Source: a virus
DNA: 24,580 bases
Reading direction: 5' to 3' (one strand)
IMG/VR virus record: IMGVR_UViG_3300025072_000045
Span: 1-24,580 of that record
A program made the translations under genes and the position numbers. Position 1 is the stretch's first letter. Every line of letters begins with the position of its first letter. Below the pieces are notes generated by a model that was given only the letters and a program-made list of their open reading frames with translations, made no database searches and was not told where the DNA came from. Below, one piece after another: positions 16,447 through 20,471 of the stretch.

Positions 16447-17625
16447 TTGTTATTCCAAACGCTAGATAACAAAAAAGAATGTTATGCAATTTATAGTTCC
16501 GGCGATCTTTATTATTATCCAAATAATTTAAAGCCAACACACACATGGGCTTATACGCCGCACTTTAAAAATAATCCTATTGAATATGCTCAGATCTGGG
16601 CTGGGGGTAAAAACCTATCACAGGTTTGTCCTGTGCATCTTAAGGAAAAATGGGAAGATATAGAACACTCAGCAAAGGCGTTTTTAAGCTCTTTTTGCGA
16701 GGCCAAGATTAATTTAGATGATGTATGCTTTTATGATCTAGTACCAAAAAAGTTTCTTCTTGAATATTGCGAAATTAAAAATAAAATAACGAATTATGTT
16801 TTTGAACACTTCAAGAAGCCGCCCAACTATGATTTTATGCTGGATCTAGTAAAATTGGTACAAGATATAGAAAAACAAAAATTGAACATACAAATAGATA
16901 ACTTAGATTATATTAATGTGAATAACAGAAAAATACTTAATAAAATTAAGAATTCATCAAACCACATTAAATATAACCCATGGGGTACAGTCACAGGTCG
17001 TCTGGCTACTGAAAAAGATAGTTTCCCGATCCTTACTTTAAACAAGGAATTGCGAACTGTGTTGCGACCCAACAATGATTTGTTTGTTGAGCTAGATTTC
17101 AATGCGGCTGAACTGCGTACCCTGTTTGGCCTCACTGGACGAAAACAACCTGCGGGAGACATCCATACAATGATCAATAAGCATGTTTTTGATTCAAAAT
17201 ATAGTAGAGAAGAGAGCAAGAAGAACGTTTTTGCATGGTTGTATAACCCCAAGGCAAGCAACAAAAATCTGAGCCAATATATTGATAAGAATGAGGTAAT
17301 AAAAAAATATTATTTTGATGATATTGTTAAAACACCTTTTGGCCGAGATCTTCCAATTGGAAAGGATAAAGCTTTGAATTATTTAGTACAAAGTACAGCT
17401 AGCGATATATTTCTAAGCTCTGCTTTAAAAATTCATGAAATATTAAAAGACTATAAGTCCAAAATTGCTTTTTGTATACATGATAGCTTGGTAATTGATT
17501 TTTGTGCAGAAGAGAAAAATATCTTGCAAGAAATAATTAATGTATTCTCTGACACCAAGTATGGCAAATTTGAAAGTACATTAAGCGCCGGCACTAATTT
17601 TGGGAGCATGAAGAAAATTATATGA
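16447..17625 (+). CDS. Short family-A DNA polymerase (polymerase domain only)
   Basis: This is a DNA-dependent DNA polymerase of the Pol I type. It has 392 residues, with TGRL at 183-186, motif A LDFNAAELR (catalytic D217, E222, R224), motif B as a perfect R-x3-K-x3-F-x3-Y (R254, K258, F262, Y266), QSTASD (315-320) and motif C IHDS (345-347, catalytic D346). The usual motif C is HDE, so S347 is unusual. There is no room for a 3'-5' exonuclease domain; residues 1-170 show no exonuclease motif and may be thumb-like. The spacing B to C is shorter than in E. coli Pol I. Translation probably starts at TTG 16447 with GAGG six bases upstream; no earlier in-frame ATG exists. T4 itself uses a family-B enzyme. 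The 3' end overlaps the next gene by ATGA. Confidence 0.88.
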   Translation: MLFQTLDNKKECYAIYSSGDLYYYPNNLKPTHTWAYTPHFKNNPIEYAQIWAGGKNLSQVCPVHLKEKWEDIEHSAKAFLSSFCEAKINLDDVCFYDLVPKKFLLEYCEIKNKITNYVFEHFKKPPNYDFMLDLVKLVQDIEKQKLNIQIDNLDYINVNNRKILNKIKNSSNHIKYNPWGTVTGRLATEKDSFPILTLNKELRTVLRPNNDLFVELDFNAAELRTLFGLTGRKQPAGDIHTMINKHVFDSKYSREESKKNVFAWLYNPKASNKNLSQYIDKNEVIKKYYFDDIVKTPFGRDLPIGKDKALNYLVQSTASDIFLSSALKIHEILKDYKSKIAFCIHDSLVIDFCAEEKNILQEIINVFSDTKYGKFESTLSAGTNFGSMKKII

Positions 17626-18467
17626 ATGTAGTTGGATTGGGATCAGCTGGGTGTGCAATAGCAAGTAAGTTTGCAGAATATCCAGAATATAAAATATTTT
17701 GTATTGATACAGAAGATAAGAATTATGGTGATTCTTTTGTTAAAATAAAAAAACAAAAAGATCATGAGCAATATGAAGCGAACCATAAATCTGTCAAATT
17801 GAAACTGGAAAACGTACCAGTTCTCTTTATCCTCTCAGGCGCTGGCGATATAAGTGGCGCTTGCTTGAGAATCCTAGAGGATTTAAAAGGGAAAAAAATT
17901 AATATTTTGTATATTAAGCCAGACGAAACTTCCCTCGGCGCTGCGGCCAAGTTAAAACACAGATTAATATATCAGGTGCTGCAGCAATATACTCGGTCAG
18001 CTGTTTTTGAAAATATATGTACCGTTGATAATGCGTTGGTTGAAAAGCTAACTAAGCAAATATCGATAACAAATTATTGGGATAGTTTAAATGAGTTGAT
18101 TGCGCGCACTTATCACATGATTAATATTTTTAATAATACAGAACCGCTGCTCACAACTTTTTCATCATCTCCTCCGCCTATCACGGCCAAAATGAACACT
18201 CTTGGATATGTTGACTACAAATCAAAAGAAGAAAAATTATTTTATGATTTAAAATATCCTCGTATGAAAATGTATTATTTTGCAATAAATTCAGCAGAGT
18301 TAGAGTCCAATAAAGAATTATTACACGAGATACGTGCTTTTATAAAAGATCGGAAAGAAAAAAAAGTTGACGTTGCTTTTTCAATATATTCAACTGTTTA
18401 CGAGCAAAACTACATTTATAGTGTACATCACGCTTCTTTAATCCAAGAAGAAAATTTAAATTTATAG
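17622..18467 (+). CDS. Divergent FtsZ/tubulin-like protein
   Basis: The product has 281 residues. The pattern follows FtsZ: an N-terminal glycine loop VVGLGSAGCAIA (3-14, FtsZ T1), a strand with FCIDTED (26-32, FtsZ AINTD), then LFILSGAGDISGACLRIL (68-85) at the place of the tubulin signature GGGTGTG, then INILYIKPDE (93-102, FtsZ VVTKP) and ENICTVDNALVEKL (130-143, FtsZ IVIDNDKLL), and a long helix. The last 70 residues (KMYYFAINSAELES, IRAFIKDRKEKKVDVAFSIY, YIYSVHH) match the order of the FtsZ C-terminal domain. The signature is eroded to GAGDISGA and the catalytic T7 loop (NxDxxD/E) is not visible, so GTP hydrolysis is doubtful. ATGA overlap couples it to the polymerase gene. A plain Rossmann protein is the main alternative. 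Fold call: moderate; function: unknown. Confidence 0.6.
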   Translation: MNVVGLGSAGCAIASKFAEYPEYKIFCIDTEDKNYGDSFVKIKKQKDHEQYEANHKSVKLKLENVPVLFILSGAGDISGACLRILEDLKGKKINILYIKPDETSLGAAAKLKHRLIYQVLQQYTRSAVFENICTVDNALVEKLTKQISITNYWDSLNELIARTYHMINIFNNTEPLLTTFSSSPPPITAKMNTLGYVDYKSKEEKLFYDLKYPRMKMYYFAINSAELESNKELLHEIRAFIKDRKEKKVDVAFSIYSTVYEQNYIYSVHHASLIQEENLNL

Positions 18468-18564: not shown

Positions 18565-19308
18565 ATGGGTATTGATTTTGAGAAGATGAAGGCGAAGCGC
18601 GATGCCTTGGAAAATCGTGGCAATGGCAAGAGCGCTTTTTGGCGGCCGGAAGATGGCGAACAAACTATTCGCATTCTACCAACCCCAGACGGCGATCCGT
18701 TTAAGCAGTATTGGTTTCATTATAATCTAGGCAAGAACCCTGGATTTCTGAGCCCGAAGAAGAATTTTGGTGAGAGTGATCCGCTTGATGACTTCATTCG
18801 CCAGCTTTATAAGGACGGCAGTGATGACAGTATCAAGATGGCTAAGCAGCTATCAGCGCGCCAGCGCTTTTTTAGTCCTGTTGTCGTCCGCGGAGAGGAG
18901 AAGGAAGGCGTACGACTATGGGGCTTCGGCAAGATGGCGTATCGAGAGCTACTGAATCTCGTTCTAAACCCAGAATACGGCGACATTACCGATGTCAATG
19001 AAGGCGTTGATCTAGTTATCAACTATGGTAAGCCTCCAGGGGCCCAATTCCCGCAGACGACAATTACTCCTCGTCGTCGTAATTCACCTGTTTCTGAGAA
19101 TGAGGAAGAGATCCAATCCTTCCTTGATCAGGTGCCTGACTACAGTACTGTTTTCGAGCGCAAGACTCCAGAACAGGTTCAGGCGATGCTTGATGAATTC
19201 TTGTTGAGTGAGGAAGATGCCGAGGAGATGTCATCTGAATCATCGAGATATAGTAGTGGCGAAACAAACTCAGTTGATCAGGCCTTCAAGGAACTGCTGG
19301 GAACTTAG
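18565..19308 (+). CDS. Single-stranded DNA-binding protein, gp32-like
   Basis: The product has 247 residues. It coats single strands during replication and recombination, working with UvsX and the helicase. Family features are the N-terminal basic segment FEKMKAKRDALENRG (the LAST-like co-operativity region), AFWRPEDGEQTIRILPTPDG (24-43), FHYNLGKNPGFLSPKKNFG, MAKQLSARQRFFSPVVVRGE and VRLWGFGKMAYRELL, followed by YGDITDVNEGVDL. The C-terminus is acidic (LSEEDAEEMSSES), the usual partner-binding tail. It has no cysteine at all, so the zinc finger of T4 gp32 is absent, and it is shorter than T4 gp32 (301). The start at 18565 has AAAGGAG at 18551-18557; an upstream TTG at 18520 lies inside the leader hairpin and is rejected. 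It lies immediately upstream of uvsX. Confidence 0.88.
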   Translation: MGIDFEKMKAKRDALENRGNGKSAFWRPEDGEQTIRILPTPDGDPFKQYWFHYNLGKNPGFLSPKKNFGESDPLDDFIRQLYKDGSDDSIKMAKQLSARQRFFSPVVVRGEEKEGVRLWGFGKMAYRELLNLVLNPEYGDITDVNEGVDLVINYGKPPGAQFPQTTITPRRRNSPVSENEEEIQSFLDQVPDYSTVFERKTPEQVQAMLDEFLLSEEDAEEMSSESSRYSSGETNSVDQAFKELLGT

Positions 19309-19367: not shown

Positions 19368-20471
19368 ATGGCAAAGAAAGCAAAGAAACTAGGTCGACTA
19401 AATATTGATGAGATGAGAAATCTTGTTAACAAGAGGGCCGGCATCGAAGTTGCTTATGACCTGACAAAAGATAATCCAACAAAAGTTAAAGAGTGGATCC
19501 CAACTGGATCAAGATGGCTTGACAGTATTGTTTGTCGCGGCCACCTTGGAGGTATTCCAGTAGGTAAAATAGTTGAAATTGCCGGTTTAGAGGGTTCTGG
19601 TAAATCCTATATGGCTGCGCAAATTGCAGCCAACGCTCAAAAAATGGGGATTACAGTTGCATATTTTGATGCGGAATCAGCTATCGACCCTGCTTTCCTG
19701 ACTAGTGCAGGATGCAACATCGAAGATATGTTGTATATGCAACCGCCTAGTGTTGAATACGTTTTAGAAACCATTGAGGAATTGTTAGGTACTAGTGAGA
19801 ACAGAATGCTGTTTATATGGGATTCTCTTGCTCTCACCCCGTCTATTAGTGATGTTGATGGTGATTTCAATCCTCAGTCTTCAATGGCTGTTAAGGCAAG
19901 AATTTTGGCAAAAGGCATGTCTAAATTAACAGTTCCTATCGCCAGTTCACAATCGACTTTTTTGGTTTTAAATCAACTTAAAACCAATATTACTAGATTT
20001 GCCGCAGAGGCCATGACCACCCCTTATGTCACGCCTGGCGGGAAAGCAATGCACTACGCATATTCACTACGTATATGGCTAACAAAACGTAAAGCAAAGG
20101 CATCCTTCATTGAAGATGAGAATGGATATAGAATCGGCTCGGAAGTAAAAGCAACGTTAAATAAAAGTCGATTCGGCACTGAAGGTCGGCAGTGCACCTT
20201 TAAAATTCTTTGGGGCGGCGAAGTCGGCATTCAAGATGAAGAGAGTTGGCTTGAGGCTATTAAGGGATCCGAATCCCTAGTTCGGGCTGGTGCATGGTAT
20301 AATTTAGTTTATGAAGATGGAACAACTGAGAAATTTCAAGCAGCTAAGTGGAAGGACAAGTTGACCAATGAAAAATTCCGTAATCGAGTACTTCAAATTA
20401 TGGATGAAGATATCATCATGCGTTTTGATAAGAAGGAAGGCAAAGCAGAAGAATTTTATAATATTGAATAG
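19368..20471 (+). CDS. uvsX: UvsX/RecA-type recombinase
   Basis: The product has 367 residues (T4 UvsX 391). It forms filaments on single-stranded DNA and drives strand exchange, which T4-like phages use for recombination-dependent replication. Walker A is GLEGSGKS (73-80), FDAESAIDP (100-108) holds the likely catalytic E103, and LFIWDSL (148-154) is Walker B. LVLNQLKTNI (199-208) is the strand-and-sensor segment (RecA has FINQ), and TPGGKAMHY (222-230) is the following loop. C-terminal blocks RIGSEVKATLNKSRFGTEGR and YNLVYEDG fit the family. GAGG precedes the ATG by a few bases; an out-of-frame ATG at 19363 is ignored. It follows the gp32-like gene, its usual functional partner. Confidence 0.93.
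   Translation: MAKKAKKLGRLNIDEMRNLVNKRAGIEVAYDLTKDNPTKVKEWIPTGSRWLDSIVCRGHLGGIPVGKIVEIAGLEGSGKSYMAAQIAANAQKMGITVAYFDAESAIDPAFLTSAGCNIEDMLYMQPPSVEYVLETIEELLGTSENRMLFIWDSLALTPSISDVDGDFNPQSSMAVKARILAKGMSKLTVPIASSQSTFLVLNQLKTNITRFAAEAMTTPYVTPGGKAMHYAYSLRIWLTKRKAKASFIEDENGYRIGSEVKATLNKSRFGTEGRQCTFKILWGGEVGIQDEESWLEAIKGSESLVRAGAWYNLVYEDGTTEKFQAAKWKDKLTNEKFRNRVLQIMDEDIIMRFDKKEGKAEEFYNIE

Follow-up and report, generated by a model that had tools for sequence, protein, structure and literature searches.

The window analysed here, a 24,580-nucleotide stretch of viral DNA (positions 1 to 24,580 of IMG/VR record IMGVR_UViG_3300025072_000045), carries on its plus strand a replication module in which a tubulin-fold, FtsZ-like gene, hereafter FZL, stands between a DNA polymerase gene and the gene for a single-strand DNA-binding protein. 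FZL is an open reading frame of 281 aa with an ATG start (17622..18467). Upstream lies a family-A DNA polymerase gene, pol (16447..17625; PF00476, E 4e-16; phrog_17), and downstream are the genes for a gp32-like single-strand DNA-binding protein, SSB (18565..19308; PF08804, E 7e-11; phrog_1192, E 2.5e-27), and a UvsX/RecA-like recombinase (19368..20471), the latter in an order kept in related loci and at a position annotated as "recombinase" in Immutovirus. Besides this UvsX-like recombinase, the replication block of the window encodes a dCMP deaminase, a 5'-3' exonuclease, a DnaB-like helicase and, judging by its place and sequence, a putative ribonucleotide reductase-like protein. The window also encodes a T4-type tail, including a T4_baseplate protein (PF12322) and a tail sheath.

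At the junction between pol and FZL, the letters ATATGAATG place the polymerase stop codon TGA at 17623-17625 and the FZL ATG at 17622-17624, so that the two genes overlap by the four bases ATGA (17622..17625, plus strand). The most likely start of the SSB gene is the ATG at 18565, 97 nt downstream of FZL, which limits the overlap to the polymerase-FZL junction. A preliminary description of this DNA, made from its letters and open reading frames, had reported this reading frame, its length, its ATGA overlap with a polymerase and its position ahead of a gp32-like SSB, all of which agree with the sequence and the family assignments above. It had also listed the elements GLGSAGC, CIDTED, GAGDISGA, IKPDE and VDNALVEKL followed by a C-terminal half, and these occur in the translation in that order. 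A chance or overprinted reading frame was considered and is ruled out by the large family to which the protein belongs and by its conservation.

As a single query, the FZL protein had no significant match in Pfam, PHROGs, PDB or the phage collection. A search of IMG/VR with the FZL protein yielded two copies identical to it and two relatives at 37-41%, and searches with alignments then extended the family to at least 212 and subsequently at least 554 IMG/VR stretches. We aligned 57 members over their full length, which is near-constant, and found 13 invariant residues. When members were scanned one by one, 16 of the 57 matched the Pfam Tubulin family PF00091 weakly (E<=1; best 1.4e-4), 10 of 57 matched the NCBI FtsZ model TIGR00065 weakly (E<=1; best 0.0018) with none of the 57 reaching its curated cut-off of 295 bits, and 14 of 57 matched the Rossmann family TrkA_N (best 6.8e-6). 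Because TrkA_N matches accompany the Tubulin matches, sequence alone cannot separate a tubulin from other Rossmann proteins, and the tubulin assignment of FZL therefore leans mainly on predicted structure. Literature searches found no paper describing the gene. One copy (L113:5977-6828) is broken by an in-frame stop or an assembly error. The sole match in bacterial genomes was in a WOR-3 MAG, CP070664.1 (L226:5505-11000), where a g15051-pol-FZL-ssb-uvsX piece lies inside the MAG "chromosome" with runs of N on both sides; we rejected it as a bacterial FZL, as it is a short phage piece that probably reflects a scaffolding error or a masked stretch.

An AlphaFold2 model of FZL built from the 57-sequence alignment had a pLDDT of 94.9 and a pTM of 0.92, and shows a tubulin N-domain and a C-domain of four strands, with a core helix H7 of 23 residues (149-171). 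The C-terminal domain (18192..18446, plus strand) comprises strands 191-197, 213-223, 249-258 and 264-271 and helices 224-229 and 233-244 in the model; it is retained across the family, and its conservation is good in part. The structure comparison that the preliminary description had proposed supported its tubulin assignment: in Foldseek searches against PDB, the best 50 matches were all TubZ, FtsZ or tubulin, led by TubZ 4ei7 (E 5e-13). A plain Rossmann dehydrogenase, TrkA_N or ThiF identity, suggested by weak sequence matches, was rejected since only the tubulin superfamily appeared among these best 50 structural matches. The same description had set a plain Rossmann or ThiF-like fold lacking a tubulin C-terminal domain against its own reading, and the model shows both H7 and the C-domain sheet. 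In the viral structure library BFVD, the best match was A0A6J5RW92 (E 8e-13, TMq 0.75), with a few phage tubulins ranking next. The C-terminal helical extension of the TubZ/PhuZ type is absent, and the model stops about 10 residues past strand 264-271.

Conservation within FZL is concentrated in the predicted nucleotide pocket. The T1 glycine-rich loop and the start of H1 (17628..17663, plus strand; VVGLGSAGCAIA, residues 3-14) form the best conserved stretch of the protein, IIGLGxAGCNIA, with an entropy of 0.45 against a mean of 1.71; G5, L6, G7 and A14 are present in 57/57 members and A9, G10 and C11 in 56/57. In FtsZ and tubulin, an Asn of T6 and an Asn or Asp of H7 contact guanine. We compared FZL with 17 FtsZ sequences from one bacterial phylum by hhalign (E 5e-4, one comparison, probability 31%), and at the level of this alignment N137 in the T6 loop (18030..18032, plus strand) pairs with the guanine-contacting Asn of the FtsZ "PN" motif (PN[D/Q]), while N157 in H7 (18066..18134, plus strand; residues 149-171 by DSSP of the model) pairs with the Asn/Asp at the guanine contact of FtsZ H7. 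Both residues are invariant (57/57), as are H165 and M166. The same alignment pairs the T4 loop equivalent (17835..17861, plus strand; SGAGDISGA, residues 72-80) with the GGGTGTGA region of FtsZ. The GGGTGTG/GGGTGSG signature does not occur in T4 of the 57 members, which have a degenerate G-[SA]-G-x-[IV]-S-G-A in its place, where G75 is kept in 52/57, S78 in 50/57 and G79 in 51/57.

The catalytic side of the molecule is different. The T7 loop and H8 equivalent (18135..18191, plus strand; residues 172-190) is a coil of nearly fixed length, with no conserved acidic pair at 171-190 in the 57 members and no helix there in the model. The eroded glycine signature and T7 loop noticed in the preliminary description thus hold across the family, with a degenerate T4, no conserved Asp/Glu pair and no H8 helix. 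Classical GTPase filaments of FZL seem unlikely on this basis, because FtsZ filaments use the T7/H8 face for longitudinal contact and hydrolysis.

FZL is a regular component of the module in which it lies. The order pol-FZL-ssb-uvsX was strict, and on the same strand, in every related locus read with the window proteins where the ends were present, so the polymerase-FZL pair that the preliminary description had suggested looking for in related phages does recur. Among 122 distinct loci, pol and FZL overlap or abut in 66 (30 of them by exactly 4 nt), are separated by 1-30 nt in 17 and by 33 nt in one, and lie more than 100 nt apart in 38, often with another gene between them. The overlapping and abutting loci suggest a possible translational coupling of the two genes, against which the 38 widely spaced loci count. 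We also fetched 69 SSB-centred loci without reference to FZL. FZL was upstream of ssb in 59 of these; eight of the remaining 10 begin less than 200 nt from ssb and two carry a different gene ahead of the contig end, such that FZL was present in 59/59 loci that extended far enough upstream and held no other insert. Exactly one copy of FZL was found in each of 13 contigs of 113-186 kb picked from the SSB-centred loci.

Several types of open reading frame were seen in or near the spacer between pol and FZL. About 20 loci (e.g., L023, L029 and L044) have, in a spacer of about 300 nt, a conserved frame of about 103 aa whose translation begins YNKLVRDxIPEII. We take it to resemble a MazG-type nucleotide pyrophosphatase; Pfam and NCBIfam did not recognise it. 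In L024, L039 and L141, a frame of about 640 aa between pol and FZL has an N-terminal signal and a CGDT/CSDT lipobox-like start. Many otherwise dissimilar small frames share an N-terminal pattern such as M(K/R)ITKxxLxxLIxEEL or M..IMENWRxFL; they were found between pol and FZL or nearby in L004, L010, L015, L017, L018, L076 and L183, and also in L052, L078 and L197. One possibility is that this shared pattern is a targeting peptide common to them, directing them, for instance, into the phage head.

We compared the divergence of seven genes of the module across 40 distinct loci. FZL distances correlated best with those of pol (r 0.76), and after controlling for the other genes the partial correlations were 0.49 for FZL-pol and -0.17 for FZL-ssb; other high partial correlations were found for ssb-dnaB (0.51) and uvsX-exo (0.47). 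With three genes from 123 loci, the correlations were 0.72 for FZL-pol and 0.42 for FZL-ssb, with permutation maxima below 0.1. Adjacency alone does not predict this asymmetry between the two neighbours, which makes partnership with the polymerase the leading reading. The co-divergence of FZL and pol could also come from tight linkage and similar rates rather than from contact.

Among named phages, those most similar in tail sheath, SSB and polymerase are the Far-T4-like phages Immutovirus, Microcystis phage Mel-JY01 and Rhodothermus RM378, which likewise combine a T4-like tail with a family-A polymerase. Immutovirus further shares a gp32-like SSB, recombinase, separate 5'-3' exonuclease and DnaB in the same order. 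The cultured Far-T4 phages examined differ in having other genes between their related pol and SSB genes and no FZL there, and HMM searches gave no convincing FZL remnants in the stretches covered of Immutovirus, Mel-JY01 and LR756508 or in the first 50 kb of RM378. These relatives indicate that FZL is core to one large marine branch and not to all Far-T4 phages. The text of the paper describing Far-T4 phages has no FtsZ (Roux et al., 2015, PMC4360716). We are nearly certain that FZL is a divergent tubulin-fold protein and a core replication-module gene of a large marine group of Far-T4-like myoviruses.

Comparison with known tubulin-superfamily proteins shows that FZL is a new, divergent tubulin-fold family and is not FtsZ, TubZ or PhuZ, from which it is set apart by its signature, its T7/H8 region and its C-terminus. 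TubZ of Bacillus plasmids and phages (PDB 4ei7, 2xka) has the same two-domain tubulin fold and is the best PDB match (TMq 0.68), but identity is at most 17%, and the GGGTGTG signature, T7 acids, H8 and C-terminal helical extension are missing from FZL, which adjoins pol and ssb. FtsZ (PDB 1fsz, 5mn5) shares with FZL the T1 motif I-G-x-G-x-A-G-C-N, the T6 Asn, the H7 guanine-contact position and the C-domain sheet; it differs in that FZL has no T7 or H8 and no C-terminal conserved peptide was seen, with identity of only about 10% over the structural alignment. At that identity, and far under the cut-off of the FtsZ model, we rejected an FtsZ newly taken from a host. PhuZ of phiKZ-like jumbo phages is also a tubulin-fold protein encoded by phage, but its T7 loop is active and it bears a C-terminal tail, its HMM similarity to FZL is not above noise (E 2.7, phiKZ gp39), and in phiKZ it is not directly beside pol. 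A search for the phiKZ nuclear shell gave no match and is uninformative. The BFVD match A0A6J5RW92, named "FtsZ" and from an uncultured Caudovirales phage, has 17% identity to FZL and is 452 aa long, compared with 281 for FZL. A precedent for superfamily members without canonical assembly elements is provided by the cellular FtsZl1 and FtsZl2 (Makarova and Koonin, 2010, PMC2875224); the T6-H7 region is missing from FtsZl1, whose C-terminal part also differs, whereas FZL has T6, H7 and a tubulin-type C-domain.

A second phage tubulin of about 346 aa was also encountered (L228:805-1845, minus strand, IMGVR 3300048881_000698; relatives L262-L309). It is found in 48 marine viral contigs of up to 281 kb, had no match in the phage collection, and keeps intact GLGGGGGKLA, GGGGGTGS and FDSKDL motifs. 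It matches FtsZ by hhalign (E 2e-11), and its model (pLDDT 91) has H8 and finds TubZ and FtsZ as best matches (E 2e-19). It thus retains the FDSKDL loop and H8, whereas the T7/H8 region of FZL is a coil without conserved acids. Among the FZL phages tested, only two (L212/G008 and L266/G047) have it in addition to FZL, and FZL was not seen in most contigs with the second tubulin, many of which are fragments.

These observations bear on what FZL might do. We consider it quite possible, though short of probable, that FZL binds guanine nucleotide and partners the replisome without forming classical GTPase filaments. Such a protein would bind guanine nucleotide in its retained N-domain pocket, would serve the replisome as partner or scaffold alongside the family-A polymerase translated with it, presumably by binding that polymerase, and would form no usual GTP-hydrolysing head-to-tail filament because the T7 loop/H8 face is missing; it may assemble in another way, or act as a monomer, dimer or cap. 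Two observations weigh against this reading: more than 100 nt lie between pol and FZL in 38 of 122 loci, and Far-T4-like phages in culture (Immutovirus, Mel-JY01) have related pol and SSB genes but no FZL at that site. That FZL is a stable polymerase partner of marine Far-T4-like phages, a nucleotide-gated replisome component or scaffold that lost filament GTPase activity and gained a role in DNA synthesis, is a speculative and somewhat unlikely proposal. A role as processivity factor was also considered; a search for the gp45 clamp (PF02916) found no match in nine large contigs, which is only a hint, as the search had no positive control.

The known phage relatives of tubulin form filaments by which DNA is moved or centred, and a true cytoskeletal filament of FZL, positioning or partitioning phage DNA or replication sites in the manner of PhuZ and TubZ, would fit the tubulin fold, the top structural match to TubZ and the location among replication genes. 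We regard it as unlikely, given that FZL is without the T7 catalytic loop and H8, which provide longitudinal contact and the trigger for GTP hydrolysis in known filaments, has no C-terminal helical tail past its last strand, and in at least two phages is accompanied by a second tubulin whose motifs are intact and which could fulfil this role. The asymmetry of the erosion, with a conserved pocket and an unconserved T7/H8 region, raises the thought of a pseudo-FtsZ: with its nucleotide face kept and its T7 face missing, FZL could join one end of a host FtsZ filament and stop its growth, blocking host division. Small proteins of other phages are reported to inhibit FtsZ (PMC3961180, PMC11897509, PMC10714956), but an identity of about 10% to FtsZ argues against capping, as does residence in a core replication module while co-diverging with pol, since a gene for host takeover ought to be patchily distributed and to change fast; we judge this quite improbable. 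Similarly doubtful, and placed lowest here, is reuse of the fold for sensing guanine nucleotide or regulating phage DNA synthesis, without any part in assembly. The most conserved features of FZL are indeed pocket residues, and the pol-FZL spacer of about 20 loci holds the frame of about 103 aa that may be MazG-like, but that frame is recognised by neither Pfam nor NCBIfam, FZL has no enzymatic signature, and its C-terminal domain is also kept and partly well conserved.

If the replisome-partner reading is correct, FZL would be a large, core, replication-linked family in which the nucleotide pocket was kept and the filament GTPase parts were lost, indicating that the tubulin fold serves another job in these viruses. 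It would add to the tubulin superfamily a clade that is unnamed in the family libraries searched here, and the polymerase and its partner would offer a directly testable gene pair in a group of ocean viruses that is abundant but uncultured.
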